Positions 14,920-56,511 of a DNA stretch of 64,000 nucleotides are shown here, one piece after another; positions within the stretch are counted from its first letter, which is position 1; every line of letters starts with the position of its first letter. The DNA is from Eunapius fragilis (lineage: Eukaryota; Porifera; Demospongiae; Spongillida; Spongillidae): positions 743,201-807,200 of the forward strand of contig OY811987.1 of assembly GCA_963681505.1 (NCBI GenBank), read 5' to 3'. The position numbers and the translations under genes were made by a program. The notes below the pieces were generated by a model. The model searched no databases. It had not been told where the DNA came from and worked only from the letters and a program-made list of their open reading frames with translations.

Positions 14920-17022
14920 ATGACCGAGTACATATGGAATCGACAAAGCTCGGCCCCCCACAACGCGGTAGAGCATAAGAGTGTGGTTTTCGTGTTGTAC
15001 ACTGGAGGTACCATAGGAATGCAATGGTCCGAAGACGGTAAGTCTTGTTATATGACGTACCTATAAAAACTAAGACATTGCATTGCGCATATGTTTAGGC
15101 TACATACTGGTCCCAAACTACTTCGAAAACAAGCTACGCACGTATCCAATGCTTCACGATCCTGGGTACAAATTCACCAGCGAGGAGTTGAAGCGGATGG
15201 AACCCTATCAACCGCTAGCCATGCCGTACGTGAGTTGCACACACACCGTATCAACACCCCCCCCCCCCCCCTCCCTTCACTGCGCGCACGCTTTCTCTGA
15301 CGCACACGAACGTACGCCACACAGTTCTTCAGGTCCCAACGCGCAAAACCGCCGCGTTCTGTACTGTGTCTCCGAGTACAATCCTCTTCTCGACTCGAGC
15401 AGCATGAGTATGACGGACTGGGCCAGGATAGCCCTGGACATCGAGAAGCACTACTCCTACTTCGACGCTTTCGTCATCCTCCACGGCACAGATACCATGT
15501 CTTACACGGCGTCTGCCCTTTCCTACATGCTAGAGAACCTCGGCAAGACCGTGGTTCTTACCGGTGCACAGGTAGTTAGTAAATTACGTTACTCACTCTT
15601 TTACTGGCGCTAATTAGGGAACAGTATCTCACACTCTCTCTCTCTCTCCCCCTCCCTCCCTCCCTCCCTCCCCCCCTCTCTCTCTCTCTATAGGTTCCTC
15701 TAGCTGAGCTCCAAAGTGATGGCCGTGATAATCTCTTAGGAGCTTTGATGATTGCTGGCAATTACACTATTCCAGAGGTATATTTAACCCCTCCCTCCCT
15801 CCCTCCCTGTACCATTCTGCCCCTCCTAACCTCCCTGTATCCTTCTGCATGCACACAATCAGGTCACTCTCTACTTCCACACCAAGCTGTACAGAGGTAA
15901 CAGAACCACAAAGATAAACTCGTCCAGCTTTGAGGCTTTCCACTCTCCAAATCTCCCTCCCCTGGCTACCACTGGTGTGGACATACATGGTCAGTGGCAT
16001 ACATACATCTGATTGGCTAAGGCTGGGCACTAGAAATGTTGGGTTGCCATGGGGATCACATGTGTGTTGTACTTCAGTGGAGTGGGATGCTATTTACCGG
16101 CCTAACAAAACAGAGAAGTTCAAAGTTCATTCTGTCATGAATCGCAACGTTGGGATATTGCGGCTCTTTCCTGGTATCACACAGACCACTGTAAGTCCAT
16201 GTGTCAGGAGTCTTTGGTGTATTGTTAGGAGTCTTTGGTGTATTGTCAGGAGGACACAAGTGGAGCAATAATGCATATGAATGCCACCAGTGTTTACTTT
16301 CTTTCCATGCCCCTCCCCCCTCCTCCTCCTCCTTCTCCCCTCCCCTTCTCCTCCCTCCTCCCTCCTCCTTCCTCCTCCTCCATCCCCCCTCCTCCTCCTC
16401 CATCCCCCTTCCTCTACTTTTTGTAGCTCTCATCCTTCTTGCAAAAACCAATAGAAGGTGTTGTCCTGCAGACGTTTGGTTCTGGGAATTTTCCAGAAGT
16501 TCCTTCCTATGTGTTGGATGAACTGAAGAAAGCATGCAGTGAGGGGATCATCATAGTGAACTGTACTCAGTGTTCTGTCGGACATGTTAGAGAACTGTAC
16601 CCTGCTGGAAAGGCATGTGAGAGAGCGGATGGAGAGAGGGAAGGAGGGAGGGAGGGAGGGAGGGAGGGAGGGTGGGTGGGTGGGAGGGATTCAATATAAA
16701 TGTCCATCATAAATGCCGTCACTCGTAAGGCTGCTACACTCAAGAATTGTGTCACATACTATAACGATGACAGTATTTATAAGAACAAAGCTATGTGTGA
16801 TCGATAGGATCATTTCCATCACAGATCCTTCGTAAAGCTGGTGTCATCCCAGGAGCAGACATGACAACAGAAGCCGCACTTGCCAAGCTCTCGTATGTCC
16901 TTGGAAAAAATGAATTTGATCTGGTGAAACGCAAGGAAGTAAGCACACTTCAGCTTATGTCCTCCTCCCCTTCCTTTTCTTCCGTCTCATCACCTCCTCT
17001 CCCTCCCTCCCACCCCACTCTC

Positions 17023-33562: not shown

Positions 33563-35660
33563 ATGGTAAGGAGTTGTGGTTTGTATGCATGAGGGCGTGA
33601 GCAGGGCCGTAGCATAAATCAGACCTACCTTCCATACAAATTACTGCCTGCAGGCTTTGAGAGCCGTAGCATCACGTATATCACCCCGCTTTGCCGGCAT
33701 ACTTTGTAACGCCTGGGGAAGAGGGAGATATGGAAAGCTTCAACACCTGTTGCCCACTGCAGCTTGGTCGGCTCGTCCTTATGTGAGAGACGAGGGTGTG
33801 GGTGTGTGTGCGTGCGCGCAGGGGGCTTAACGCACTTCCCTACCGTCCTGTTCAGGCCACTCGCAAGGAGACTGACAGCTTTGGGCCGATAGAGGTGCCC
33901 GCTGAGAAGTACTACGGAGCACAAACTGCAAGGTCGCTTATGCACTTCGACATCGGGGGGCCCGCTGAGAGGATGCCTGTGAGGCCACTCCCATTGCTCC
34001 ACCCCTTGTCATTTTTTTTTTTTTTCTTTTTTTTTTGTACAGCTGCCTGTTATCCACGCTTTCGGTTACCTGAAGCGGGCGTGCGCGGAGGTCAACGCAG
34101 AACATTATGGACTGGACAAGAAGGTCGCGGAAGCCATAGTGAAGGCTGCCACTGAAGTTAGTGCTCGCATTTGTATTCCTGCTAGCGCTATACGGGTGAC
34201 TCGTTTTTATTTTACAGGTGCACGATGGAAAGCTGGATGAACACTTTCCTCTTGTGGTGTGGCAGACCGGGTCAGGAACACAAAGCAACATGAACGTCAA
34301 CGAAGTCATTAGCAACAGGTAGACTATTCGGAACGGGCGTCTCTCTTGTGCTCCCATTCTCACAGCTAATCCTTTCCTTATCCGCCTTTGTCTGAGATGG
34401 CTCGTGTATTTATGTGTTCAGTTTCAACTCTCTGGTTCACTTGTAATCTTTTCATTTGCTTTTGGATCTACCTGTTTTTATTTTATTTTAACTTCTTACA
34501 GGGCTATTGAAATGTTAGGCGGACAGCTTGGTTCAAAGAAGCCAGTCCACCCTAATGACCATGTTAACTGCAGCCAGAGCTCTAACGACACTTTCCCCAC
34601 TGCCATGCACGTGGCAGTTGCCATGGAGATTAACAGCAGATTGCTCCCAGGGCTGGAGACATTGCACGAGGCATTAGTGCAAAAGAGTAGAGAGTTCAGC
34701 GACATTGTGAAGATTGGGAGAACTCACACCCAGGTGCGTTGTGATGGCCGCTTTTTGGTGTGTAGGGGTGGAGGGGTGGGATAACAGCAATCATATGCTT
34801 GTTGAACTGTATCGGCCGGTACTATGGTTTTATAGGATGCCGTGCCACTCACACTGGGACAAGAGTTCAGCGGCTATGCCACGCAGGTCAAGTACAGCGT
34901 TCTGAGGGTTAAAGGCACTCTTGCGCGTCTCTACGAACTGGCCATCGGAGGAACCGCGGTGGGGACGGGCCTCAACACGCGCGTGGGGTTCGGAGAGAGG
35001 GTAGCGGCTCGGCTCGGGGAACTCACCGGCCTCCCCTTCACCAGTGCGCCCAACAAGTTTGAAGCCCTGGCGGCGCACGACGCACTCGTGGAGGTCCACG
35101 GCTCCCTCAACACTGTGGCCTGCAGCCTGATGAAGATCGCCAACGACATCAGGTTCCTCGGCTCAGGTCCCCGCTGCGGTCTGGGAGAGCTGACTTTACC
35201 CGAGAACGAGCCCGGGAGCAGCATAATGCCGGGAAAGGTGAATCCCACCCAGTGCGAGGCCCTGACCATGGTTGCGGCCCAGGTGATGGGTAACCAGGTG
35301 GCCGTCAGCGTTGGGGGCAGCAACGGGCACTTTGAGCTGAACGTCTTCAAGCCGCTGATGGTGAAGAATGTCCTCCAGTCGACGCGACTCATTGGAGATG
35401 GATGCCAGTCGTTCACGAAGCACTGCGTCCTCGGCATTGAAGCCAACAGGGATAGGATAAACACCCTGGTGAAGGAGTCGTTGATGCTGGTGACTGCACT
35501 AAACCCGCACATAGGTTACGAGAAGGGTGCCACTATTGCAAAAACTGCCTACAAGAACAGGACAACCCTGAAGCAGGCGGCCCTTGAGCTTGGCTACGTC
35601 ACAGAGGAGCAGTTTGACGCTTGGGTTAAGCCAGAGCAGATGCTGGGGCCTCAGCCATAA
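33563..35660 (+). CDS. FH: Fumarate hydratase, class II
   Basis: Six exons give 465 aa: 33563-33565 (start codon only), 33856-33978, 34043-34156, 34218-34318, 34502-34733 and 34836-35660. The protein is a class II fumarase: [20 protein letters not shown] at the N-terminus, [49 protein letters not shown] and the superfamily signature [11 protein letters not shown]. It converts fumarate and malate in the TCA cycle as a homotetramer. The inferred first exon ends exactly after ATG (then GTAAGG), so the protein starts [12 protein letters not shown] with no mitochondrial presequence. A longer mitochondrial form would need another first exon, which I do not see. It runs convergently towards TBP, with 373 bp between the stop codons. 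Confidence 0.95.
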
Positions 35661-38185: not shown

Positions 38186-41100
38186 ATGCCCCTTCTTCAC
38201 AATGTGCCTTTCAAACCTGAGCCGCCTCCTAGTGATTTGAGGCCGGATGAAGAGGTGTTTTTGTGTCGTCCTACCCAGGAAGTATTCAGAGATTACGAGT
38301 AAGCAAGAACTAGTGCGCTAATTAGAAGTACATGTACATTTAAAAAGCATCAAGTTAGTATTAACATCTGATGACCCGCATAACTTGACGTAAGGTCACT
38401 TTTTAAATGATGTTTTCATTTCGCAGGAAGTTCTTCAATCGCTATTACCTTTGCAACAGCCTTGTGTGGACCTGTGAATACTCGGGCAAAAATGGTCTCA
38501 CCTATGTCCAGGCCGTCACCAGCGAGAAGGAAACAAAGTCCCTTCTAGATGCGATGCCCCTGTACTTTCAGCGAGCCATCCTTACCCTTGTCCACAATTC
38601 AGCACGCACCAACATGAAGGTGCTTGAAGATGAGATCATTGCCTTTTACCGTGAGAGGTTCATAGTGGGAGAGCACCTTGACCTGTCTCAGCCCACCACC
38701 AATGGCTGCAGGTGAATGTGTGTGTGTGTGTGCGTGTGTGTGTGTGTGTATGTGCACGCACTGCTGGTGTAATATCTCCCCCCCCCCCCCCCCCCCCCCC
38801 AAGTTTTCACACACTGATGTGTTATAATATGCTTAGCAAATTTTGATCTTATATATTTACATGTTTCTTTAATGCGTGTACACAGGTCCTCCTTACAGGT
38901 GCTGGTTTTAAATGTTATCCCGCCAGAATGTGATAAGGAGCCAGCTGCGCAGCCATTGTGCAAATCGCCCACTCAGCTGACCCCGTTGGTCGAGTGCACT
39001 GCAAGTGCAGCTGCTTGCACGCCCAACCTACACGAAACCACGCCCACCTCACAGGATGCTGCAGCTGCTCCTACTCCTTCCTTGCAGCAGAACGGTCTGC
39101 TTGACAATGCACACCTTCTGAAATCAGCAAACAGTTCGACCAAGAAGCGGTCGAGTGCAAAGTGGAGCGGCTTGCCCATCTCCCCAGAGGCCAGCTTGGA
39201 CCCATCCAAGTACCTGTACGTCGTCCAGGATGTAGCCTTGCCAGGCGCCGTGTCACAGGTACCAGCCAGCCAGCTGAGGTGAGTCCTTTATCTGATATCC
39301 CCTGCGTGAGCACCAAGTTTAGAAAGGCATTGTGCTTATCCAACAGTCGACCAAAGAGTGTTTTCACAAGGGAGAAAGTGAGGATATTTATGAAGAACAC
39401 TTTGTACAAGCCCAGCGATAGGCACCCAATCATGGTGAAGGTAAATACGACAAAATATTGAATGATGGATGATTAAGTTTTTTGTGTACCTCTCAGGATC
39501 AGTACGTTCAGAGGTTCTCACTTGGACCGTTGTCTCAGGACTTGACCAACGTACTTTCGTCTCCAACGCTAACCTCAGAGAAGAAGAGGAGTCTTGCTCA
39601 AGCAAGCCTGGACAATTTTTTCAGTCCTGGATCGGGTTCTGAGCCCAAGAGGCCAAAGTCTTTGACCACACCAGAGGGGTCATCTGGTAAAGCCAGAGGG
39701 TTGTCCACTAAAGTAGGGAAGCCAAAGAAAACGCCCAAAGGAAAAGGATTAGGCAAAGGAAAGAAGTTGAAATCTCAAAACCTTCTTAGCTCTGGTGACA
39801 TTGCAGGTGTGGGCAGCAGCACGCCAAAGATGAATGGACCCAAAACCCCACAGTCTTTCTCCGTTGGGAAGATGGAGGCACTGAAGGCTCTCAACAGAGC
39901 CAAGAAAATGAAGCAGTTGGATCTCAAGAGAAGCGTGCATAAGAGTGAGTCGTCTAAGCACATGACCGAAGTTGAGTGGCAGGAGATGCAGCAAAGAGTG
40001 GATGCATTGACGGTGGCACAGAAGCAGTCCAAGAAGGAGGAAAGGCTCCAGAAGCTGAGGAGGTTTCACGAAGTGAAGAGACAGGAGCGGATGAAGCAGA
40101 GGGAATTGATGAAGCCACGGGAAGATTTGCTATGCGAAGGCACCACAGTGAGTGTGAGCTGTTTTTATTTAATTTTTTAACCACCCGCTTTGCTTGACAA
40201 AACAATTGATCATTTTTATTTTTATTTTCTCCTTCAGCCATTGCCTGCTCCAGTTCCAGTGGTATCAAAGCTACCTAATGAGCTGTTTGGACAAACTGTT
40301 ATGGTGATGGAGTTTCTATACACATTTGGACCATTGTTCAATATCAAGGATTTCATTGCAGAGACCGTCACGTTTGGTAAGGTGTGAATGGTTGGGGCCA
40401 TATGAGTAAATGCTCTCTATGCAGCATAGTAAACTATTCAGTAGTACAGCACTTTTTAGACTATACAGTGGGGACAGCATTGATGAAGCATATTGCAATG
40501 GGACGGTCAAATTAAGCAGAAATATCATATTCATGCACTAATAGATAGCTTTTGTATCTGAGATAATTGACGTAAAGTTTTTCCCTAATTTAGAGCTTCA
40601 ATTTTTTCAAGTTACTTATTTAAACTCAATATTAATATTTTGGACTCAATTTGCTATCGTGTTTTTTTCCCACTGTAGTCAGGTTTCTATGGTTATGGTG
40701 TTTGAGGCATTTGTAACAATTTCTATGTTCTGTTCTCAAACTACACGATTCTTAAGTTTTTGCCCTTTTGTGTCAACATGCAGTAGCAAAAACGAACAGG
40801 GAAACAATTGAAGTGCTTTGCTTTGGAGTTCCATCACATGCTTTGCTAGCCAACCCCCCCCCCCCCCCCCTCCCCCTCCCCCTTTATAGAACATCGTTAT
40901 TTATTTGATTAAGTTCCTGATCACACACGCTTGCATTGATTTATTATTTTCTATTTACATCAGTATTTAATTTCCATTCTCAGGCCAGATGGAGTACGCG
41001 CTAACGTCTTGTGCACTGGACAGTCATTTATTTGACATCATAAAGTTCCTTCTGCAGACCATTTTTGCATATAAGGAAGAAGAACACGAATTTCATGTGG

Positions 41101-44100
41101 GCGTGGTTTCTAGTGAGAAGAAGTCCCTCCTTGAAACAGAAGGGAGTAAGAAGGTGGCCGAGGAGGTTAAAGTGAGTAAGGTAGAGATAGTAGATGGAGA
41201 AATGGCTCCGGTCACTCACATTGACTCGGATTTCAAAGTCAACGCTGAGGGAGAAACGAATGCGCAGTCTGATAAGAAGTTGGACGATGGTCATCTGAGT
41301 GAGGAAGAGGAGGAGGGAGATGAAGTGGTGGGCAAGAGGCTCGACAGGAGGCTGGACACCATCAAGGTGGCAGCAAGAGCGACAGCCAAGTGGTCTCTGG
41401 TGACTCAGTGTGCTTATCTCCACGAACTCATCCTGGACCCTTACACGTGTTCCGAGGTTCTGCGGCTCCACCTCTTGTCGAGTGGCGGGTACGCGGACTC
41501 AGGCGAGAAAAGTTGGTTTAGACATGCTCATCGCGGGGGGTACTCTGATGCCGATGACCCGGCTATTGAGCTTCAGTTGCAACGACCAGACATTCTGGCT
41601 AAACTTGGTCATACGGCAGTGTACGACCTCCAGCCTGCCGAGAAGCTGGCCGTGCTCTCCACCCTGTGCTCCCAGCTGCTCTCCTACTCCGTTGCCAGGG
41701 ACCACGTGGAGGTTGCTAGGGCGAGGGCAAAGAAGGCTAGGAGGACACTGAGGGAACTTTGCTTGGCTGAGGATAGGAGGAAGAAGGAAAGAGGGCAGAA
41801 GGGAAAGAAAACAAAACCGAAGAAGCAGAAAAAGGGGAAAAGGGAAAGGTTCGTTGCACCTGATGCTGTAATCTAGTTCTGTATGTACATCAGTAAACTA
41901 GTAAACTACTTCTATGTGGCAGTATACATCAGTAATCTAGTTCAGTATGTGCATCAGTAAAGTAATCATTATGAGTAGCTTTCTGTGCATAGTAGGAAAC
42001 CCATTGTTCTGGAGATGTAGTTAACAGTTGTTCAAAGCAATTATAAGTAGGTGGCCTTGTGTTCTAAACCATGGAAATACTCTGCAACTTGCACTGCAGG
42101 TCCATTTAAATACACTGGCGTGAAAATGTACGTTGCGGGCATTGCCACCATCACCTGTACGCTTACATATTGATATTTTGTTTTGTGCAAGTATTAATTG
42201 TTCTTTGTATTTAAACACTGGTAAAGTTATTTGCATCATCGTTCATTATTGTAAAAAAAATTTTTTAATCACCACAATGCCACTTCAAAGTTTGAAAGGA
42301 GAAGAGAAAGAGAAAGCAACTGGTCAAGGCACAGAGATAGCAGGGAATAACGAAACACCGAAAGGTCAGAGCAAAAGGGCTAGTCCCCAGGGCGTCATGT
42401 TGGACGCTGATACGGATGCAATAGGCAACTCCGTGGCAACTAAAGGTTCTCCTGTTGAACCAATTATCGCTGAAGATCCGATGGAAACTGAAGAAGAGCG
42501 AACAGCGAGGATTGAGCGGGAGATGGACAAATTGCATGCGGAGATCAATGCTGCTTCTGCTGTCTTACAGATTGTGCCGCTGGGAACTGACCGTTATCAC
42601 AGGAGGTACTGGGTGTTCACCTGCCTTCCTGGGCTGTACGTGGAACACAAGGTGGACGTTTCGGACGATGCAAAGATCTTGATTGATGAGGCCAATCGGC
42701 GAGTCAAGGCATCGCCTGATCTTGCAGTGGCAGCAGATAGTGACCTACCATATGGTATGCAGCCTTCTGGAAGTTCAACAACAACATCTGGGAGTCCCCT
42801 GGAGTGCACTTCGGCGGCAAACCCATCAAGTGATCAGGTCCAGTGGTCATGCTATTCCACTGAAGATATGGTCCAATCTCTCATTGCTGTTTTAAACCTA
42901 CGTGGCATAAGAGAACACGAGCTGAGGACAAAACTACTTGCTCAGAAGAGCAACATCATTCAGTTGCTGCCTAAGTGCCCGTTCCAATCTTCCCAAGTGT
43001 CAGGTACTGTTGAACCAGCAGGTACTGTTGAACCAGAACTTCCATCCTCAGTGACTGCCAATGGGGTATCTGAATGCTCTCCAAAGTCTGCAAATGAGTT
43101 TCTTGAACTCTATCTTAGAGAACAAATCTTGGACATTGAGGAGAAAATATATCTCGGTAATTTGGGCCATTTGAGAGACGTTGAAAACAGGTCGGATTGG
43201 CGAAGCACAATTGAAACCACCGGTGCAGCAGCTGCTGCTGCATCTAAAACTGAAGGTGGTGACAGTTTACAATTGACAAGTGCATCCACTGTTAAACAAG
43301 AACACAATCCTGAAGTCGTCCAACCTGTGAAGGAAATCACTGAGGATGGAGTTGTCGTGCCTGTTCCACCAGTGGTTGATCCATTGGAACAATTATCTAG
43401 GTCACTTCTCCAAGTGCAGGCAGGTATTGAAAAGAAGTACCTTATGCTACCTCTTGGAGTCGCAGTTGATGAGAAGCACAAGAGGGGAAGTAAAAAGGCT
43501 GACACAGTCAAGGATAGTGATCTTTGTCTTGAGCAGTGGAAGACTTCTTTAGCCAAGTCCACCAGCTATGCACAAATCTTTGTTCACCTGGCTACGTTGG
43601 AAAGAGCTGTCATGTGGAGCAGGTCTCTTATGAACGTGCGTTGCCGCATCTGCAGGCGCAAGGGTGGAGACGAGTACATGCTTCTCTGTGATGGGTGTGA
43701 CCATGGTTACCACATGTACTGCCTTCGTCCACCACTGGTAGATGTGCCCGAAGGAGACTGGTTCTGCTATGATTGCAAACCTCTCACCCCCAGCAAGACG
43801 AGGAAAAGGACTCAAAGAGTACCCATTATTGAAAATTCTAGCGAAAGTGAAGAGGAAGAGAAAGAAGAAGAAGAATACCGAAGTGAGGAAGAACAGAGTG
43901 GAGAACAGGATGTCTCTGATGAAGAAGGCGATGTAGCAACAAGAAAGCCAAGACGATCCAAGGCTTCTGATTCCGTGGAGGTTCGCCGATCGTCCAGGCT
44001 TCAGAACAGTGGTGAAAAAAAACCAGAGAGTAAACCCAAGAGCAGAGGCCCACGCAGGAGAGTATCCTTTGTGCCTGAGCCAAGTCCTTGTAGTAAATCC

Positions 44101-45575
44101 TCCTCTGGAGCTTCTCCACAGTTAGATAGCAACCAGGGTCGCAAGAGGCCAAGATCAGAACAGCTGCAAGCTTCGCCTTTCCTCACCAAGGCAGAGGGCA
44201 TTGTTGCTGCCATTATCGACCTCCGTTGTTCACAACCCATGTCAAAGAAAGCAACGTCTTCATATAGGCGAGAGCAACAGACACTGGAACTTCGGCTTTG
44301 TGAGGCTATCTGGGATGAAGTGAAGGGCCACCAAGATAGCTGGCCATTTTCAGGGCCAGTGAAGAAGAGAGAAGTAAGTCTTCCAGGTGTTTGAGAGAGT
44401 GAGAGAGGGGGGGGGGGGGGGGGGGGAAGGTTGTTTAGTTTGACCTGATATTTGCCCTGGTGTCTCTTCCACTGTTGTACACATTGCCCAACTACATAAC
44501 ATCTCCACCCACCTTATACCTCACTACATAACATCTCCACCCACCTTATACCTCACTACATAACATCTCCACCCACCTTATACCTCACTACATATCATCT
44601 CCACCCACCTTATACCTCACTACATAACATCTCCACCCACCTTATACCTCACTACATAACATCTCCACCCACCTTATACCTCACTACATATCATCTCCAC
44701 CCACCTTATACCTCACTACATATCATCTCCACCCACCTTATACCTCACCACATATCATCTCCACCCACCTTATACCTCACTGCATAACATCTCCACCCAC
44801 CTTATACCTCACTACATATCATCTCCACCCACCTTATACCTCACTACATATCATCTCCACCCACCTTATACCTCACCACATATCATCTCCACCCACCTTA
44901 TACCTCACTACATATCATCTCCACCCACCTTATACCTCACTACATATCATCTCCACCCACCTTATACCTCACAACATATCATCTCCACCCACCTTATACC
45001 TCACTACCTATCATCTCCACCCACCTTATACCTCACCACATATCATCTCCACCCACCTTATACCTCACTACATAACATCTCCACCCACCTTATACCTCAC
45101 TGCATAACATCTCCACCCACCTTATACCTCACTACATATCATCTCCACCCACCTTATACCTCACTACATATCATCTCCACCCACCTTATACCTCACTACA
45201 TATCATCTCCACCCACCTTATACCTCACTCTCTAAATGGATGCAACTATAACAGTTTGTGGAATTGACCTGCCTTTCTATTTCCTAGTTCCCTGATTATG
45301 CTGACATCATCACAGTGCCAATGGACCTGAAGACCATTAAGAACAAGCTGAACGCCAGAGAGTACGAAGGGTTGGACTATTTTCTTAGAGATATGGACCT
45401 CATCTTTAGCAACTGTCTGCTGTACCACAAGAGGCACTCTGAAGTTGGCAAAGCTGGTGTATCACTGAAGAGGTTCCTTGACAAGAGGTGCAGTGATCTG
45501 GGGCTACATGACCTCCAGCTTTCTGGAATTGATGTGGGCTCTCGAGTTAATCTGCGGTCGCAATCTGGGAACTAA
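38186..45575 (+). CDS. BAZ1A: BAZ1A/BAZ1B-type chromatin remodeler subunit (ACF1/WSTF)
   Basis: Nine exons with consistent phases encode 1,644 aa: 38186-38298, 38427-38711, 38886-39278, 39323-39440, 39497-40147, 40238-40376, 40984-41848, 42291-44373 and 45288-45575. Domains in order: WAC (starts MPLLHNVPF; LRPDEEVFLC; FFNRYYLCNSLVWTCEYSG) at about 1-110; Lys-rich coiled linker; DDT (LPNELFGQTVMVMEFLYTFG) at about 525-590; WHIM/WSD motifs, including DRYHRRYWVF; a C4HC3 PHD finger (CRIC, CDGC, GYHMYC, CYDC) at about 1305-1350; and a C-terminal bromodomain. Such proteins pair with ISWI ATPases to space nucleosomes. BAZ1A and BAZ1B cannot be told apart by eye; the symbol marks the group. In the bromodomain the acetyl-lysine Asn is His (NCLLYH). 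The exon 4 start depends on a 44-bp intron. Confidence 0.92.
44461..45232. repeat. 32-bp minisatellite, BAZ1 intron 8
   Basis: About 24 copies of CTACATAACATCTCCACCCA plus CCTTATACCTCA, with TAT/AAC variants. It separates the two halves of the bromodomain coding sequence. A run of about 20 G residues precedes it (44408-44426). Confidence 0.97.
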
Positions 45576-46862: not shown

Positions 46863-47099
46863 ATGACTGCCGTAATGGTACCGCGCACGTATCCTAATTT
46901 AGCGTTGATAGTTAATTATGCACTTCCAATCAACAATCCCGTTCGCATCGCTGTGGCTCAGATGATCGGACACTTTAAGTTGGCAACGCGTAGAAGCGAG
47001 CGTCGAGGTACGGTCCACCTCATGGACAAACGGACCAAGTCCGACGTAAGCTGCGAGGAAGGAACGTCTGTGAAGGTAGGGTCACCCAAAAAAGGTTAC

Positions 47100-47146
<47 letters not shown>

Positions 47147-50100
47147 GTGGCACCATCGGTGCCGATGCAAAAAAGCGTAGCTCGGATTATATCGGGCCTG
47201 CTGGCTTGCTGGGCGCACGTGTGTTGGTGTACGAACCCGCTGCTTTGTTATGTGTTTGCGATAGTATAGCAACAAAACAGGGGCAGAGCTCTGTACATAA
47301 GTGGTGTGTATTTGTGTGCGTGTGTATGTATGTATGTGCGTGCCATTGTGTAGAGGTGTGCACGAGCCTTTGGGGGGGAGGGGGTTGTGTATAAGGACTA
47401 TAGGAGACGAGCGCGCGAGTGTTGTTTGATGTTAGGAGCAGATATGCTCAGCGTGTTGGCAAACTTCGGTTGCCAAACTGGAAGCAATCCGTGAAATCTA
47501 AATCGTGGTTCCAACGGGTGTAGTTCGCAGAATTGATTGTTTTTTCTTTCTGTGAACAAGAGCGGCTTATGCATCGTGGGGGGGGTGGGGGGGGGCGGGG
47601 GGGTAGGATCATTTCCTTAGCAATGACGCTCACCCCGCCTTCCTCCCGAGGAACGCGTCTTTTTAAAAAATATATGACGTCATATTGTTTCGGTTGTTAC
47701 ACTAACTTCATAATTGCCATTCCATGCATCACTATGTGTTGACAGACTAGGAAACCACTTGTTCTATCCCAGACTGAGGGTGTGTATGTAGTAGGAGGAG
47801 GGCTCCATTAATAGCATACATCTTTGTCCCTTAGGAACCATCATTATTAAATGGGGGATGGGCAACAGAATGGCACATGTCAGTAAACAACAGTGCAGAC
47901 TGCTGGTTAAGGCTCTTCCACTTCCCACCACCCACACACTGTACTTTTTTTTTTTTTGATTGGCTGACCCTCAGCTGTTTTTATTTTGCCCATTTAGGAC
48001 TTCATTGACGCAACATGCAGAGACCTGGCCATCATACCTGTAGCCAGGGCCTTCTTCGGGCTATGTCACCTGAAGACGGGGCAGTGTCTCAGCCCTTACC
48101 AGAGGCTCAGTCACCAGGACTTGCGCCAAGACTACCAGCTGCGTGTGGTTGTGCACCTGCATCAGAACAGCCTCATTCTGCAGAGACTGAGCAAAGGGGC
48201 ATACAATTACTACTACGACCAGGTCTTTTGTAGTGTGGGTGTGTCCTTCATTGTGGTGGGTGTGTTCTTCATTGTGGTGGCTGTGGCCATTGTAGTGGGT
48301 GTGTCCTTGGTGGCTGTGGCCATTGTAGTGGGTGTGTCCTTGGTGGCTGTGGCCATTGTAGTGGGTGTGTCCTTGGTGGCTGTGGCCATTGTAGTGGGTG
48401 TGTCCTTGGTGGCTGTGGCCATTGTAGTGGGTGTGTCCTTGGTGGCTGTGGCCATTGTAGTGGGTGTGTCCTTGGTGGCTGTGGCCATTGTAGTGGGTGT
48501 GTCCTTGGTGGCTGTGGCCATTGTAGTGGGTGTGTCCTTGGTGGCTGTGGCCATTGTAGTGGGTGTGTCCTTGGTGGCTGTGGCCATTGTAGTGGGTGTG
48601 TCCTTGGTGGCTGTGGCCATTGTAGTGGGTGTGTCCTTGGTGGCTGTGGCCATTGTAGTGGGTGTGTCCTTGGTGGCTGTGGCCATTGTAGTGGGTGTGG
48701 CCTTGGTGGCTGTGGCCATTGTAGTGGGTGTGGCCTTGGTGGCTGTGGCCATTGTAGTGGGTGTGGCCTTGGTGGCTGTGGCCATTGTAGTGGGTGTGGC
48801 CATTGTAGTGGGCGTGTCCATTGTGTTTGCCCTCATTCTTGTAGCGGCAATGTGTGTAGGTAGAATGGCTTTGACTCGTGTCCTTACCTTTCCTCTGTGC
48901 ATAGGTCAGACATGATTTCCTGCACGATGAGGCATATCCTCCAGTGTCTGTCAACACTAAAACCTGGATGGTGGGAATTGACATAGCCAGACAGGCCATG
49001 TTGAGCAAGGAGAGCTTCGATGTACTTGTGTGAGTTACCAGGGAAGGAGCGTGAGGGAGAGGTGTAGGGATGGAGGAAGGAGGAGTGTGAGGGAGAGGTG
49101 TAGGGATGGAGGAAGGAGGAGTGTGAGGGAGAGGTGTAGGGATGGAGGAAGGAGGAGTATGAGGGGGAGGTGTAGGGATGGAGGAAGGAGGAGTGTGAGG
49201 GAGAGGTGTAGGGATGGAGGAAGGAGGAGTGTGAGGGGGAGGTGTAGGGATGGAGGAAGGAGGTGTGAGGGGGAGGTGTAGGGATGGAGGAAGTGAGTGA
49301 GTGAGGTGAGGAAAGAAGAGTTGCAGGGATAACCTTTTAATATGTAACTCCCAGGAAACAGAAAGCCATTCTTGAGGCTTCTATTCCACCATCTTTTAAG
49401 AAACTGTGGAATAAGAAGATGTGCGAGTCAGTCAAGCAAGTATTTGAGAAGTTCAACAACGCTGGGTTTGACAGTGAAAATCACTTCAAAGCCAAGTTTC
49501 TTGAAGTATTTGAACAAGACAAAATGTGTGGTATTCACGTATTCAAAGCCAGCTGGGTATGTGTATGTGTGTGTGTGAATGGGGGGGGGGGGGGGTACAT
49601 GTGAAAAGGAATGTATGCACCAGGTGGAAGTGATTTGCTAATGAACTTTTTGTTAGGAAAGAGTTGCACGTTCAACCATGTTGATGCCACATGTATATGC
49701 ATCACTCATTGTATCAGGAAATTCAATTATGTAACCTTAACCAAAGAATTACTAACTTTTGATGCCCCACACTGTAAGCTGGGATTTCGTCAATGGCCAC
49801 GCCCTCACGTATGGCTATATGGCCACGCCCTCACGTATAGCTATATGGCCACGCCCTCACGTATGGCTATATGGCCACGCCCTCACGTATGGCTATATAG
49901 CCACGCCCTCACGTATGGCTCTATACTACTGTGCACTCATACCTGTATGTATGTTGCTTTTCCTGTCTAGTCCAATGGAACTCAGACACACACTCCCCTC
50001 ATCTTAACCCTGGTGTCGTCAGAATATGGAATCTGTCGCGTTGTCAAAGGCGCAGATAAAAAGGTGGGCGTGGCTGATGGTGCAAAGGGAGGTGTTGCAG

Positions 50101-52035
50101 GTGTGAAGGCTGAGGTGCTATGGCAACACTACTTCCCTCCACTTAAATGCATTATGCTGGATAAGTCTTTTGCATACTTTTTAATAACCTTTGTGTAATC
50201 ACGTTTTTGGTGAGGGGAAGGTGGCTATTGGTGAGAGGGAGGTGACTATATGGGTACATGGGTGTATAGGTACATGGGTATATGGGTACATGGGTGTATG
50301 GGTACATGGGTGTATGGGTACATGGGTACATGGTTGTATGCCGGGGTACATGGGTGCGACACGTGGCACGTAAATGTTTTAACCCCTATGCTTCCCTCAC
50401 TGTAATCTAACCCCTATGCTTCCCTCACTACAATCTAACCCCTATGCTTCCCTCACTACAATCTAACCCCTATGCTTCCCTCACTACAATCTAACCCCTA
50501 TGCTTCCCTCACTACAATCTAACCCCTATGCTTCCCTCACTACAATCTAACCCCTATGCTTCCCTCACTACAATCTAACCCCTATGCTTCCCTCACTACA
50601 ATCTAACCCCTATGCTTCCCTCACTACAATCTAACCCCTATGCTTCCCTCACTACAATCTAACCCCTATGCTTCCCTCACTACAATCTAACCCCTATGCT
50701 TCCCTCACTACAATCTAACCCCTATGCTTCCCTCACTACAATCTAACCCCTATGCTTCCCTCACTACAATCTAACCCCTATGCTTCCCTCACTACAATCT
50801 AACCCCTATGCTTCCCTCACTACAATCTAACCCCTATGCTTCCCTCACTACAATCTAACCCCTATGCTTCCCTCACTACAATCTAACCCCTATGCTTCCC
50901 TCACTACAATCTAACCCCTATGCTTCCCTCACTACAATCTAACCCCTATGCTTCCCTCACTACAATCTAACCCCTATGCTTCCCTCACTACAATCTAACC
51001 CCTATGCTTCCCTCACTACAGTCTAACCCCTATGCTTCCCTCACTACAATCTAACCCCTATGCTTCCCTCTCTACAATCTAACCCCTATGCTTCCCTCAC
51101 TACAGTCTAACCCCTATGCTTCCCTCACTACAATCTAACCCCTATGCTTCCCTCACTATAATCTAACCCCTATGCTTCCCTCACTACAGTCTAACCCCTG
51201 TGCTTCCCTCACTACAATCTAACCCCTATGCTTCCCTCACTACAATCTAACCCCTATGCTTCCCTCACTACAATCTAACCCCTATGCTTCCCTCACTATA
51301 ATCTAACCCCTATGCTTCCCTCACTATAATCTAACCCCTATGCTTCCCTCACTATAATCTAACCCCTATGCTTCCCTCACTACAATCTAACCCCTATGCT
51401 TCCCTCTCCCCTATGCTTCCCTCACTACAGTCTAAACAGCAAAAGGTGTGCTCAATTGGTGAATTAAAAAAGGTCGAAGTCCTGAGGCCTAAAGCTGTGA
51501 CCATATCATTTGAAAGAGATCAATCAGAAACCATTGCTGAAACTGAGCAAACACTTCCTAGTAAATGGGTATGTGGTTTATTTGTTGGGCATTATTTAGA
51601 GCCGTCTTTTTTGTCTTGGTAGTGAGTATTGGGATCCACGTTTTCCCCATTAGGAGGAGGGAGGGAGGGATGGGGGGAGCCATTATGGATCATTTGATGG
51701 TATGGTAGGTATGAGAGTTTGATGGAGTTCATAGGAAACATTATCCACCATTTCATTTCTTCTGAAAGTAAACACCGCTGTATGTTAAGATTCAAACTAT
51801 GTTGGCAGTGACCACAATGGAAAAATAGAATCCGGGACATGACAAAAACACCGTCACCACAAACACTACACACCACACCACCATATCAAAAACATACACC
51901 ATCACCATTATCACAACATACACCATATCACAACATACACCATACACCATCACCATGCTACAATGGATAGTATTGGATCCAAAACATACCATGGTATATT
52001 GCTGGTCACAGCAGAATGGTCCATACGACCATCCA

Positions 52036-52072
<37 letters not shown>

Positions 52073-52891
52073 ACATACATAAGCACTCGCATGTACACAC
52101 GTACACTCTCTCCCTCTCTCTCCCCCCTCTCTCCCCACTGGGCTACTTCTAACACACCCCTATCCTCTGTGGTCCCCACAGGTGCTGATGTTTGCCAGCA
52201 CTGAGGACATGGTGTGTTTTGCTACCCTGCTGAATGCTTACTACCAGATCATGGTAGACGCCAACTTCTCTATATTGGAGGGAGACCCTTCAATTGTCCC
52301 CACTGATGATATGTTGAAAATGGGCAAAAATGGTATGGCGTACAACAGTGGAGTGGTGGAGGTGGGAGGGGTAGTGGAGTGGTGGAGGTGGGAGGGGTAG
52401 TGGAGTGGCGGAGGTGGGAGGGGTAGTGGAGTTGTGGAGGTGGGAGGGGTAGTGGAGTGGTGGAGGTGGGAGGGGTAGTGGAGTGGTGGAGGTGGGAGGG
52501 GTAGTGGAGTGGTGGAGGTGGGAGGGGTAGTGGAGTGGTGGAGGTGGGAGGGGTAGTGGAGTGGTGAAGGTGGGAGGGGTAGTGGAGTGGTGGTGGGAGA
52601 GTAGTGGAGTGGTGGAGGTGGGAGGGGTAGTGGAGTGGTGGAGGTGGGAGGGGTAGTGGAGTGGTGGTGGGAGGGGTAGTGGAGTGGTGGAGGTGGGAGG
52701 GGTAGTGGAGTGGTGGAGGTGGGAGGGGTAGTGGAGTTGGGAGGTACATTTTAAAATCAAGTTAACAACTGCAGTTAATAAATTGTTTTCCCACATTAAC
52801 TTTCACAATCCATTATGAGACCAGATATGCACAGCGAATGTTTTGTTGTTCTATGGGTGTTTATACCTTCGAAGGTGGTATATAGTAACAT

Positions 52892-52961
<70 letters not shown>

Positions 52962-52967
52962 TCTCTC

Positions 52968-53045
<78 letters not shown>

Positions 53046-53692
53046 TCTGTGTGCTCACTCAGATGAATATAAGAGAAACCTTTGTCATGCCGCCATTAGG
53101 TGAGAGAGGGGAAGGGTGTGCATTAAATGAAATAGGGGGAGGGGCTTATGGAATTGGAGGGCACTAATGAGACCAGTTCTGACTCCGCCCGCTTTATATG
53201 ATGCTCCCTTCACTCCATGCCCATATATGGCGTAACCCTGCATTTCAGTCCTGATTCGGTAGAGAAAATCCTGGAGATGTACAACAAAGATGACGGGACC
53301 TACCTGATCAGGGAGAGCAGGAGCAGCGAAGGCTCGTACACACTCTCTCTCTGCCACAACGCCAGAATCAAGAACTTTAGGATCAGCAGGGACCCTGATG
53401 GGACACTTTCTCTCCGAGATCCTGGGGGGATGCAGGACCCTGGGAGGATGCTCTCCCTCAGGGACCCTGATGATGGAACCCCTGATGTAGACAAACCTGT
53501 GAGGCTATTTGCAACCATGGCTGCCCTTATTGAACACCATACCAGAGAAAAGGTTGGCCGTGTGATATGTCATGTTACCTTTGAGCAAGCTGTACCTCAA
53601 ACTCCCCCCCCCCCCCCCCCACACACACACCAGGATGGACTTCCAACCCAGCTTAAGATCAACTGTTCTCCAATAGAGGTGGCCAAAACTGC

Positions 53693-53737
<45 letters not shown>

Positions 53738-53806
53738 TGTATGTGTGTATTAAAACATGCACCTGTAGATTGATTCAAAGCATATCTTTCACACACATTC
53801 GCTCAC

Positions 53807-53853
<47 letters not shown>

Positions 53854-54331
53854 ACACACACACTCACACACAGGGGCTATTCCTCTGGTTATCCTAAAAC
53901 ATGTGGCCATACGCAGAGACTCCTCCCCAGCCTCCACATCTGATGGAACAGACGCCTCCACCCCTGCGGCACCAGGCTCTCCACAGCTGCCACTTCCAGC
54001 AATGGAGGAAGAGCCTAACCCAGTTGACGGCTCACCTGGCCAGAGACCAAAACACCCCAAAACTGAGGCACTGGTCCAAAAGGGTGTGCCCTGGATATCA
54101 TTTGAACAGCTGAAGTTGAGCAAAAAGCTTGGATCTGTAAGCATGGTGGGATGGGGAGGAGGGTAAAGTGGTGGGATGGGGAGGAGGGTAAAGTAGTGGG
54201 AGGGAGAGGAGTGTAAGATAGTGGGAGGGAGTGAGCCTGATGGCAGGGGGAGGAGGGATATTTGGCACATCAGAGCGCTTTTAAAAAAAACAGAAATAAC
54301 AGAATGTGTGTGTGCGTGTGTCATGCATACG

Positions 54332-54366
<35 letters not shown>

Positions 54367-56511
54367 TGTGTGTGTGTTTAGGGACACTTCAGCAATGTTT
54401 ATGCAGCTACCTGGACAAAGCCCAGCAGGGAATCATCAGAAGTAAGTTTTCTCATCATGGAAGATTGAATGAAGTAGTAACCCTTCATTAAAAAAATGTT
54501 AGAACATCTCATAATTAGAAGAATAGTATTGGCACACACCATCACTATGGCATGCCAGGATGACCCCACACACAGTGCACAGAAGTATTAGTATGGACCC
54601 GAAGGAAGCAATTTTTACAGTCATGATGCTAGAGGTACACAACTGGAGCCCCCGGACTCAGACAGCGGGTGAAAATGGCCACTTGAAACTCCAAACCCCA
54701 ATACCCCAATTCCAACAACCCCGTAGTGAAATACATTACGCCAAACATATATTAATTATTTGGGTGTGCCAAATGTTCTGTGTGCACACTGCTGCTAATC
54801 CCTAACCAGCTGCTTGGCTGCTTGTCCTAACCAGCTGCTTGACTGCTTGTCCCTAACCAGCTGCTTGTCCCTAACCAGCTGCTTGTCCCTAACCAGCTGC
54901 TTGGCTGCTTGTCCCTAACCAGCTGCTTGGCTGCTTGTCCCTAACCCTAAGCTGCTTGGCTGCTTGTCCTAACCAGCTGCTTGACTGCTTGTCCCTAACC
55001 AGCTGCTTGTCCCTAACCAGCTGCTTGGCTGCTTGTCCCTAACCAGCTGCTTGGCTGCTTGTCCCTAACCCTAAGCTGCTTGGCTGCTTGTCCAGCTGCT
55101 TGGCTACTTGACGTGTTCCCTTTCATGTGCAGGTGGCTGTCAAGGTACCCAACGTGGATGGGGAGGAGTTGGATGCTGTAATGAATGACTTGGAGAGGGA
55201 GATTGTCACCATGCATTCACTTGATCACAAACACATCGTTAAGCTCGTGGGTATTAGCGATGGTAAGTGGGAGATACCATTTGCTGACCCTAACCACTTT
55301 AACTCTTTCTCTCCCCTCCACCCCCTTCCTAGCTCCTCACTTTCTCACCTTGCTAGGGGGGCGTATTCCTCTGGTTGTCATGGAGTTTGTTCCCAAAGGA
55401 AGTCTGAGGTCCTACCTGCAAAGCCTACAGGTGGGTGTGACTGTGGATAAGTGTGATCAGTGATGACTGGTGTATTATTCCTGCACACACCGTGCACACA
55501 TCCACACACGTGTACTAACAGGAAAAGTCACACAGTGAGCCTCGGACTGCACAGAGTAGTATGAAAACTCTTCTACTATTCAGTGAACAGATTGCTAATG
55601 GGATGGACTATTTGGTGAGTGATGTGTGGTGATAGTGATATGTGTGGTGGTAGTAATATGTGGTGTGGTGTGGTGTGGGAACTCCATTTCTCATATTCAG
55701 GAAAACCAGAAGCTGGTTCATCGCGACCTAGCTGCAAGGAATGTCCTCATTGAGTCAGACAAACTGGTCAAGATATCAGACTTCGGACTGAGCAGGGGCC
55801 ACACAAAATCAGATTATTACTACTCCAGTAACCTGAAAGAGCTTCCAATATTCTGGTAAATTTTGTAGTGAAAATGTAAATCAAATTACTTTCTTACTTA
55901 TGTTTCCCCCCTTCCTCCCTCCTCTCCCTTTCCTCCCCCCTTTCTCTCCTCTTCCCTCCTCTCCCCTTCCTCCCTCCCTTCCACCCCTCTCTCCCCTTCC
56001 TTCCTCAGGTACGCCCCAGAGTGTTTAAAGAACAGACGCTTCACCTCCAAAGGAGATGTCTGGAGCTATGGGATCACCCTGTGGGAGATGTTCACCATGG
56101 GACATCTCCCTAATCATGTGTTTCAAGCACAGCTGAGACGCTTCCAACAGCCAACAGTCAACATTCACGCACTGGTAATCTCTCTCTCTCTGTCTCTCTC
56201 TATTTCTTCTCTCTCTGTCTCTCTCTCTCTCCCTCTCCCTCTCCACCTCTCTGTCTCTCTCTCCCTCCCTCTCCACCTCTCTGTCTCTCTCTGTGCCACT
56301 CACCTCAGAACTCTCCTTCCAACAGATGGTACGGTTGCTTACCGAAGGCCCCACCCCTTCTTCCCCACCAGCCCCCCCTCTGCCCAAAGTTCCACCCTGC
56401 CCATCAGAAGTTTATGATATCATGTTAGAATGTTGGAAGATTAAACCGGAAGACAGACCCAGCTTTCGGGACTTGCAATATAAGGTGGCTCTGGAGGCCA
56501 CACGACTGTAG
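46863..56511 (+). CDS. JAK-type tyrosine kinase: FERM - SH2 - single kinase domain
   Basis: Twenty exons, every phase consistent, encode 926 aa: 46863-47075, 47746-47779, 47835-47905, 47998-48222, 48905-49029, 49355-49556, 49971-50063, 51431-51568, 52182-52332, 53063-53099, 53249-53552, 53634-53694, 53874-54136, 54382-54441, 55133-55262, 55357-55430, 55522-55614, 55701-55855, 56009-56174 and 56326-56511. Residues 1 to about 415 follow the JAK FERM layout (ubiquitin-like strand [48 protein letters not shown]). SH2 about 424-535 has the phosphotyrosine Arg451 in YLIRES. After a Pro/Ser-rich linker comes one kinase domain: [18 protein letters not shown] (K663), HRDLAARN (D767), DFG (D785), a YYY activation segment (797-799) and the JAK-specific PIFWYAPE. 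There is no second kinase-like (JH2) domain. It would be a receptor-associated kinase. Confidence 0.9.
47101..47144. repeat. Poly-T run, JAK intron 1
   Basis: A 44-base uninterrupted T run within the first intron. Confidence 0.97.
48236..48820. repeat. 33-bp minisatellite, JAK intron 4
   Basis: About 17 copies of GTCCTTGGTGGCTGTGGCCA plus TTGTAGTGGGTGT. Since 33 is divisible by three, all frames stay open; the minus frame reads as a His-rich [11 protein letters not shown] repeat. It lies wholly between a good donor (48223) and acceptor (48904), so it is intronic. Confidence 0.95.
49040..49290. repeat. 36-bp minisatellite, JAK intron 5
   Basis: Seven copies of GTGAGGGAGAGGTGTAGGGA plus TGGAGGAAGGAGGAGT. 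Intronic. Confidence 0.95.
49790..49925. repeat. GGCCACGCCCTCACGTATGG repeats, JAK intron 6
   Basis: Five copies of a 26-bp unit (GGCCACGCCCTCACGTATGG plus CTATAT). Confidence 0.93.
50215..50355. repeat. Short GGGTACATGGGTGTAT repeats, JAK intron 7
   Basis: Irregular copies of GGGTACAT/GGGTGTAT (8-16 bp periods) before the 28-bp array. Confidence 0.9.
50374..51430. repeat. 28-bp minisatellite copying a splice acceptor (JAK intron 7)
   Basis: About 37 copies of CTAACCCCTATGCTTCCCTC plus ACTACAAT. The real acceptor of exon 8 (CTTCCCTCACTACAG then TCTAAACAG at 51431) is the last, slightly diverged unit. Several internal units also read CACTACAG. Confidence 0.95.
52345..52742. repeat. 24-bp minisatellite, JAK intron 9
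   Basis: About 16 copies of GTGGAGTGGTGGAGGTGGGA plus GGGGTA, with deletions. Intronic; the minus Pro/Ser/Thr/His frames are artefacts. Confidence 0.95.
52892..53045. repeat. (CT)n microsatellite, JAK intron 9
   Basis: About 150 bp of CT repeat with a few CCCT interruptions immediately upstream of the exon 10 acceptor, where it may act as an extended polypyrimidine tract. Confidence 0.97.
54795..55112. repeat. CCCTAACCAGCTGCTTGGCT minisatellite, JAK intron 14
   Basis: Irregular copies of CTGCTTGGCTGCTTGTCCCT plus AACCAG with units of 19-30 bp. Intronic. Confidence 0.92.

Follow-up and report, generated by a model that had tools for sequence, protein, structure and literature searches.

The main disease mutations of JAK kinases, e.g., JAK2 V617F, map to the JH2 pseudokinase domain, which is also a drug target. 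JAK1, JAK2, JAK3 and TYK2 share with the invertebrate JAKs a FERM-SH2 region that is followed by a C-terminal tyrosine kinase. Normally, the protein comprises FERM, SH2 and two kinase domains, and exceptions were described in a hemichordate and an annelid (PMC13203501). The same paper, citing Nichols 2006, reports JAK and STAT in Porifera; the available part of its text describes no sponge JAK without JH2. According to the accessible portions of two further sources, the JAK families date to the chordates (PMC8662651) and JAK is absent from unicellular holozoans (review PMC8061703). The parts available of PMC6040629, PMC6723221, PMC7147346 and PMC4054682 contain nothing on the architecture of sponge JAKs, and the word sponge is absent from that of PMC3296744. 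In the accessible text of this literature on JAK and kinases, a sponge JAK lacking JH2 is nowhere described; other papers or databases may record one.

A gene of the freshwater sponge Eunapius fragilis (Spongillidae; 46863..56511, forward strand) was studied within a window of 64,000 nucleotides, i.e., the whole stretch of DNA that was analysed; all positions below refer to it unless a contig or locus is named. Its product is probably, judged from sequence, a cytoplasmic tyrosine kinase of the JAK lineage with the order FERM-SH2-linker-JH1 and without JH2. Common to this protein and the JAKs are adjacent tyrosines in the activation loop, the string FWYAPE, a long insert ahead of the last helices and a STAT in the same genome. 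It differs from them by the missing JH2, a short linker free of tyrosine, a more canonical SH2 domain and a FERM region nearer to that of FAK. Lacking JH2, the protein falls outside the architectural definition of a JAK and is therefore treated as a JAK-lineage variant.

Gene structure and domain order

Exon borders were picked by eye at AG/GT sites and joined by script; the model is predicted from the DNA. It consists of 18 exons with 2676 nt including the stop codon and presents a single open frame of 891 amino acids. The initial annotation had proposed a complete, phase-consistent gene of 20 exons, of which the open in-frame model was confirmed, but with two exons fewer. All 17 introns have GT/AG bounds, a few with weak donors, e.g., GTCTTT and GTTGGC. 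Upstream of the chosen ATG at 46863 the frame stays open up to 46686 and includes further ATGs, so that translation may begin farther upstream and the start codon is uncertain. Tandem repeats fill introns at 48275-48798, 49045-49303, 50380-51406, 52347-52745 and 54791-55093; the largest of them, in intron 5, has a 28-bp unit in 36.7 copies.

Exon 1 (46863..47075, aa 1-71) encodes the N-terminus with the uncertain start. The F1 part of the FERM is located on exon 2 (47998..48222, aa 72-146), with a sub-threshold Pfam FERM_N match at aa 51-110, and F2 on exons 3 (48905..49029, aa 147-188) and 4 (49355..49556, aa 188-255). Both F2 exons are covered by the alignment to the FAK FERM; the pattern NYYYDQVRHDFLH of exon 3 starts in exon 2, and a Pfam FERM_M match, likewise sub-threshold, extends over aa 139-251 from exon 2 into exon 4. 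F3 was assigned to exons 5 (49971..50063, aa 256-286) and 6 (51431..51568, aa 287-332), both with a weak FRMPD4 alignment, and to exon 7 (52182..52332, aa 333-383), the last helix of F3, which aligned to JAK1 SFVSLVDGYFRLTADA and whose PDB sequence match alone was insignificant.

The SH2 domain begins in exon 8 (53063..53099, aa 383-395) with NLCHAAIS, has its core with the phosphotyrosine arginine in YLIRES in exon 9 (53249..53552, aa 395-496) and ends in exon 10 (53634..53694, aa 497-517). Exon 11 (53874..54136, aa 517-604) carries the Pro/Ser-rich linker, free of tyrosine, and then the start of the kinase. The order proposed initially, with the SH2 end in exon 11 and the kinase start in exon 13, held, but in the 18-exon numbering the borders lie in exon 10 and at the end of exon 11. 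The kinase continues through exon 12 (54382..54441, aa 605-624) with the glycine-rich loop, exon 13 (55133..55262, aa 625-668) with the VAVK lysine and helix C, and exons 14 (55357..55430, aa 668-692) and 15 (55522..55614, aa 693-723). Exon 16 (55701..55855, aa 724-775) covers the activation loop and PIFW, exon 17 (56009..56174, aa 775-830) APE, helix F and the start of an insert of JAK length, and exon 18 (56326..56511, aa 831 to stop) the rest of the insert and the end of the kinase C-lobe.

Pfam recognized the SH2 domain at aa 391-448 (E 2.7e-12) and the kinase, PK_Tyr_Ser-Thr, as one stretch at aa 596-881 (E 4.1e-78), with the stop codon 10 residues past the latter match. Together with a FERM found by profile comparison, this confirmed the expected FERM-SH2-tyrosine kinase order as well as an SH2 domain with its phosphotyrosine arginine. 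The single kinase, presumed catalytically intact in the initial annotation, has its catalytic motifs intact by sequence, the glycine loop, the VAVK lysine and APE among them; the predicted FWYAPE is present, and the adjacent tyrosines of the activation loop are three in a row (YYY). The linker was rightly called short and Pro/Ser-rich, but it measures 79 residues (aa 516-594) rather than about 95, none of them tyrosine. An unexpressed or decaying JAK copy might be suspected from the long, repeat-filled introns; against this speak 18 exons with GT/AG borders in one frame, the retention of every catalytic motif and a genome search that gave no better copy, and we regard such a decay as very improbable.

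Absence of the JH2 pseudokinase domain

About 780 nt of coding sequence would be required for a pseudokinase domain with its roughly 260 residues. Between the exon of the SH2 core and the first full kinase exon lies the segment 53553..54381 (forward strand), made up of introns 9-11 and exons 10-11. The three introns have 81, 179 and 245 nt, in sum 505 nt, which is less than the space needed, thus a JH2 cannot fit between SH2 and kinase. The window does not contain a single N. In a six-frame scan of the whole window on both strands, 2887 stop-to-stop stretches of at least 12 amino acids were compared with 24 kinase-domain queries. Kinase similarity was observed only in exons 12-18; six other stretches with E below 1 all had E values of at least 0.22. 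Repeating the scan without the kinase of the window among the queries recovered six of the seven kinase exons (E 2.6e-12 to 0.047) and missed exon 12, so the sensitivity of the scan is fair but incomplete, and lower still for a divergent JH2. The missing space weighs more heavily against a JH2 than the scan does. Both bear out the initial statement that JH2 and the room for it are missing, and in this assembly no JH2 is concealed between SH2 and kinase.

A canonical JAK could have been misread if its JH2 exons had been lost by an assembly error or displaced: the published assembly was scaffolded from 825 contigs, and the gene model is a prediction from DNA. The absence of N in the window, the short introns 9-11 with their continuous frame and the failure to find anything else kinase-like in the window contradict this, and the explanation is hardly credible. 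Against the whole genome, a mouse JAK1 JH2 query yielded 31 matches, partly identified, with SRC-type loci as the best; an intron-split JH2 could escape such a search.

FERM region and SH2 domain

The Pfam matches of the N-terminal region, FERM_N (E 0.12) and FERM_M (E 0.024), remained below the cut-offs. A PDB sequence search with the FERM part returned FRMPD4 as best FERM (E 0.89); a match to KMP11 in this search was discarded as a chance match. Because these searches gave sub-threshold matches only, the FERM assignment relies on profile comparison (hhalign) and shuffled controls. Three FERM profiles were compared: FAK, with a query sequence that may be approximate, FRMPD4 and JAK2/JAK1. The FAK profile gave E 1.8e-4 and a score of 36.7, a value that none of 40 shuffles reached (maximum 19.7). 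FRMPD4 followed with E 0.0028 and a score of 28.0 (shuffle maximum 21.4), then JAK2/JAK1 with E 0.025 and a score of 23.5, barely over the shuffle maximum of 21.7. A JAK-specific FERM was thus not supported by the JAK2/JAK1 FERM profile alone. When FERM and SH2 were taken together, the alignment to the JAK2/JAK1 profile was collinear over 384 columns (E 8.6e-5, probability 60). By these profile comparisons the N-terminal part is a FERM, nearer to that of FAK than to those of JAK1/2. The Pfam model Jak1_Phl had no match in the gene; its sole match in the genome lies elsewhere (E 2.08).

FAK and PYK2 share with the sponge protein a FERM and one tyrosine kinase, and FAK was the best of the three FERM profiles. 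Unlike them, the sponge protein has an SH2 domain and no linker tyrosine, and its kinase is not nearest to FAK in the trees. FAK has the order FERM-kinase-FAT, whereas the stop codon 10 residues past the kinase match leaves no C-terminal room for a FAT domain.

The best PDB matches of the SH2 domain were SYK and ZAP-70; JAK was absent from the best 60 of 172 matches. SYK and ZAP-70 have in common with the sponge protein a similar SH2 domain, the succession SH2-linker-kinase and the string WYAPEC, but they possess two SH2 domains, whereas the sponge protein has one and a FERM in place of the second. The start of the SH2 domain resembles SNCHGPIS of JAK2, unlike the tryptophan start (W-Y/F-x-G) of the SRC, SYK and ABL genes of the sponge, and comparison with a JAK SH2 profile gave E 6.1e-5. 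With a FERM nearer to that of FAK and an SH2 domain nearer to those of SYK, the JAK lineage is likely rather than proven.

Kinship of the kinase domain

Trees were calculated from 24 rows: the window kinase, four JAK JH1, two JH2, 12 other vertebrate and five sponge kinases. The window kinase stood beside JAK JH1 in all three trees, with supports of 92/84 (LG+C20), 95/86 (LG+G4) and 93/92 (LG+G4 without the two JH2 rows), most vertebrate rows being sequences that may be approximate. ACK1 was sister to JAK plus window kinase in the LG+C20 tree (80/75). In constrained-tree tests (p-AU), kinship with ACK1 (0.29), SYK/ZAP70 (0.15), FAK (0.096) or EGFR (0.087) was not rejected, while FES was rejected (0.013) and JH2 marginally so (0.045). 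The expected placement in the JAK clade was recovered with good, though not decisive, support (bootstrap values of 92-95). The ACK1 kinase is nearly as similar (39.0 % identity), but has no insert (length 40) and reads FAWCAPE instead of FWYAPE in the row used. ACK1 (TNK2) is not known to have a FERM-SH2 region.

The segment from helix F to CW counts 60 residues in the sponge kinase, 53-54 in all four JAK JH1 and 37-43 in all 19 other kinase domains. As the insert columns are filled in five of the 24 rows, they should drop below the 30 % limit of the tree, thus the evidence from insert and tree is largely separate. FWYAPE was shared by the window kinase with all four JH1 rows, while the 19 others lacked it. 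Within the insert, GQM is present in the JAK1, JAK2 and TYK2 rows, but neither in JAK3 nor in the sponge kinase; GQM is a SOCS-binding motif.

Overall identities to JAK3 JH1 (39.2 %), ACK1 (39.0 %) and FGFR1 (38.1 %) were nearly equal; those to JAK1, JAK2 and TYK2 were 37.9 %, 37.7 % and 37.0 %. In a PDB sequence search a tandem EGFR construct came first, the kinases of JAK1, TYK2 and JAK2 were among the best matches, ACK1 had the same score as the JAK1 kinase, and SYK/ZAP-70 appeared in the top rows. Exon by exon, with six of the seven exons found, the best outside matches were ACK1 (twice), INSR, JAK3, FAK and ZAP70, i.e., a JAK in one exon only. A mouse JAK1 JH1 query against the genome placed unsplit SRC-type kinases on top (156.7 bits) and met the JAK-like gene via one exon (41.8 bits, 47 % identity); due to the splitting of the kinase by introns, this query is uninformative on kinship.

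A FAK-type FERM, a SYK-type SH2 domain and a JAK/ACK-like kinase might also have come together independently, either in sponges or in early holozoans, yielding a protein that works like JAK or FAK without descent from JAK. FAK as the closest of the three FERM profiles, SYK/ZAP-70 as the top listed SH2 matches and the tree tests that rejected neither ACK1 nor SYK kinship are in line with such an origin. However, the FERM-SH2-kinase order, the insert of JAK length, FWYAPE, the CH-type SH2 start and the bootstrap values of 92-95 with JH1 agree in speaking against it, and the FERM and SH2 of vertebrate JAKs appear so divergent that generic relatives would score better. We therefore consider a separate assembly unlikely and favour descent from the JAK lineage.

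Ancestral architecture or loss of JH2

If JH2 had been copied from JH1 after the sponge split, JH1 and JH2 would group without the sponge kinase; this constraint was marginally rejected (p-AU 0.041). A group of JH1, JH2 and the sponge kinase was not rejected (p 0.19). At face value, the two values lean slightly to a loss in the sponge or a separate origin of JH2. With a very long JH2 branch and only two JH2 rows, the test is prone to long-branch effects and does not separate ancestry from loss. Possibly, though we would rather doubt it, the sponge protein represents the JAK architecture that preceded the kinase tandem: a FERM-SH2-kinase docked on a receptor and already coupled to STAT, to which the JH2 brake was added later toward the other animals. 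If so, it would be a living stand-in for a pre-JH2 JAK.

Proposed mode of action

By analogy to JAK, the FERM with the SH2 domain would dock on a membrane receptor at its cytoplasmic tail. Clustering of receptors would juxtapose the kinase domains for a mutual phosphorylation of the YYY activation loops, and receptor tails and STAT would be phosphorylated next. The canonical SH2 domain could bind phosphotyrosine and would then favour a feed-forward recruitment. Without JH2, something else would have to keep the resting activity low, most likely a clamp of the FERM (or SH2) on the kinase as in FAK; simple proximity control combined with phosphatases may be an alternative. FAK Tyr397 and the interdomain tyrosines of SYK are linker switches, and a switch of either kind is unlikely in the tyrosine-free linker. 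Since the sponge also has STAT and SOCS-type genes, its JAK-lineage kinase lacking JH2 renders the origin of the need for JH2 testable: either a JAK can be restrained without it, or the sponge lineage lost JH2 and compensated for it. This bears on the form of JAK-STAT signalling in the first animals.

JAK-STAT partners and other kinases in the genome

The genome of E. fragilis was searched in 218,937,333 bases on 24 contigs; the available description of the assembly gives 218.91 Mb in 23 chromosomes, a mitochondrion of 28.5 kb and a BUSCO completeness of 60 % (PMC12616128). A STAT5 protein query located STAT exons at C2:14829678-14830796, with FIIRFSE in the SH2 core and YLYPNIPKDELFKKYY, so the STAT sought as a partner is present in the same genome. 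A family search with STAT_bind found no match in the genome, and neither did its 14 controls. SOCS boxes were detected at six places, two of which, at C14:5455976-5456422 and at C11:23813-24244, adjoin an SH2 domain within open frames of equal length.

A second JAK was not found in the genome, where other kinases are many and were partly examined; with the BUSCO completeness of 60 %, this absence is weak evidence. A genome search with the FERM part gave 16 matches at E of at most 10, none of them a paralogue: eight were the gene's own exons, seven lay in the SH2 part, and one spanned aa 310-433 (E 2.0) with two stops. The FWYAPE DNA pattern matched once in the genome, out of frame in a MYND-finger gene; intron-split copies are missed by this pattern, as in the JAK-like gene itself. 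In a pattern scan of prokaryote genomes 12 stretches matched, none of them a relative.

Candidate paralogues were rejected after their motifs had been read for a family name: SYK (L030), SYK-like (L046), ABL (L032), EGFR-like (L034), receptor kinases (L036, L047; L037 with the same match scores as L036), MAP3K-like (L048) and MAPK-like (L049). L042-L045 had no kinase match at E 1e-3. The SYK-type genes, at C10 and C15, are separate from the JAK-like gene. The two SYK-like kinase loci, L046 (3295-6017) and L030 (2254-8513), contrast with a dating of Syk to chordates in the accessible text of PMC8662651. The receptor-kinase-like open frames of L036 (C9:4505000-4514000) and L037 (C20:5836000-5845000) lie on opposite strands and are possibly one gene copied.

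Elsewhere in the window, WHIM1, WSD and PHD finger frames upstream of the JAK-like gene (40971-44391, forward strand) resemble a chromatin gene of the WSTF/BAZ type. Pieces of a fumarase-like gene (Lyase_1, FumaraseC_C) were located at 34323-35657 and an asparaginase N-terminal domain at 15074-15610.
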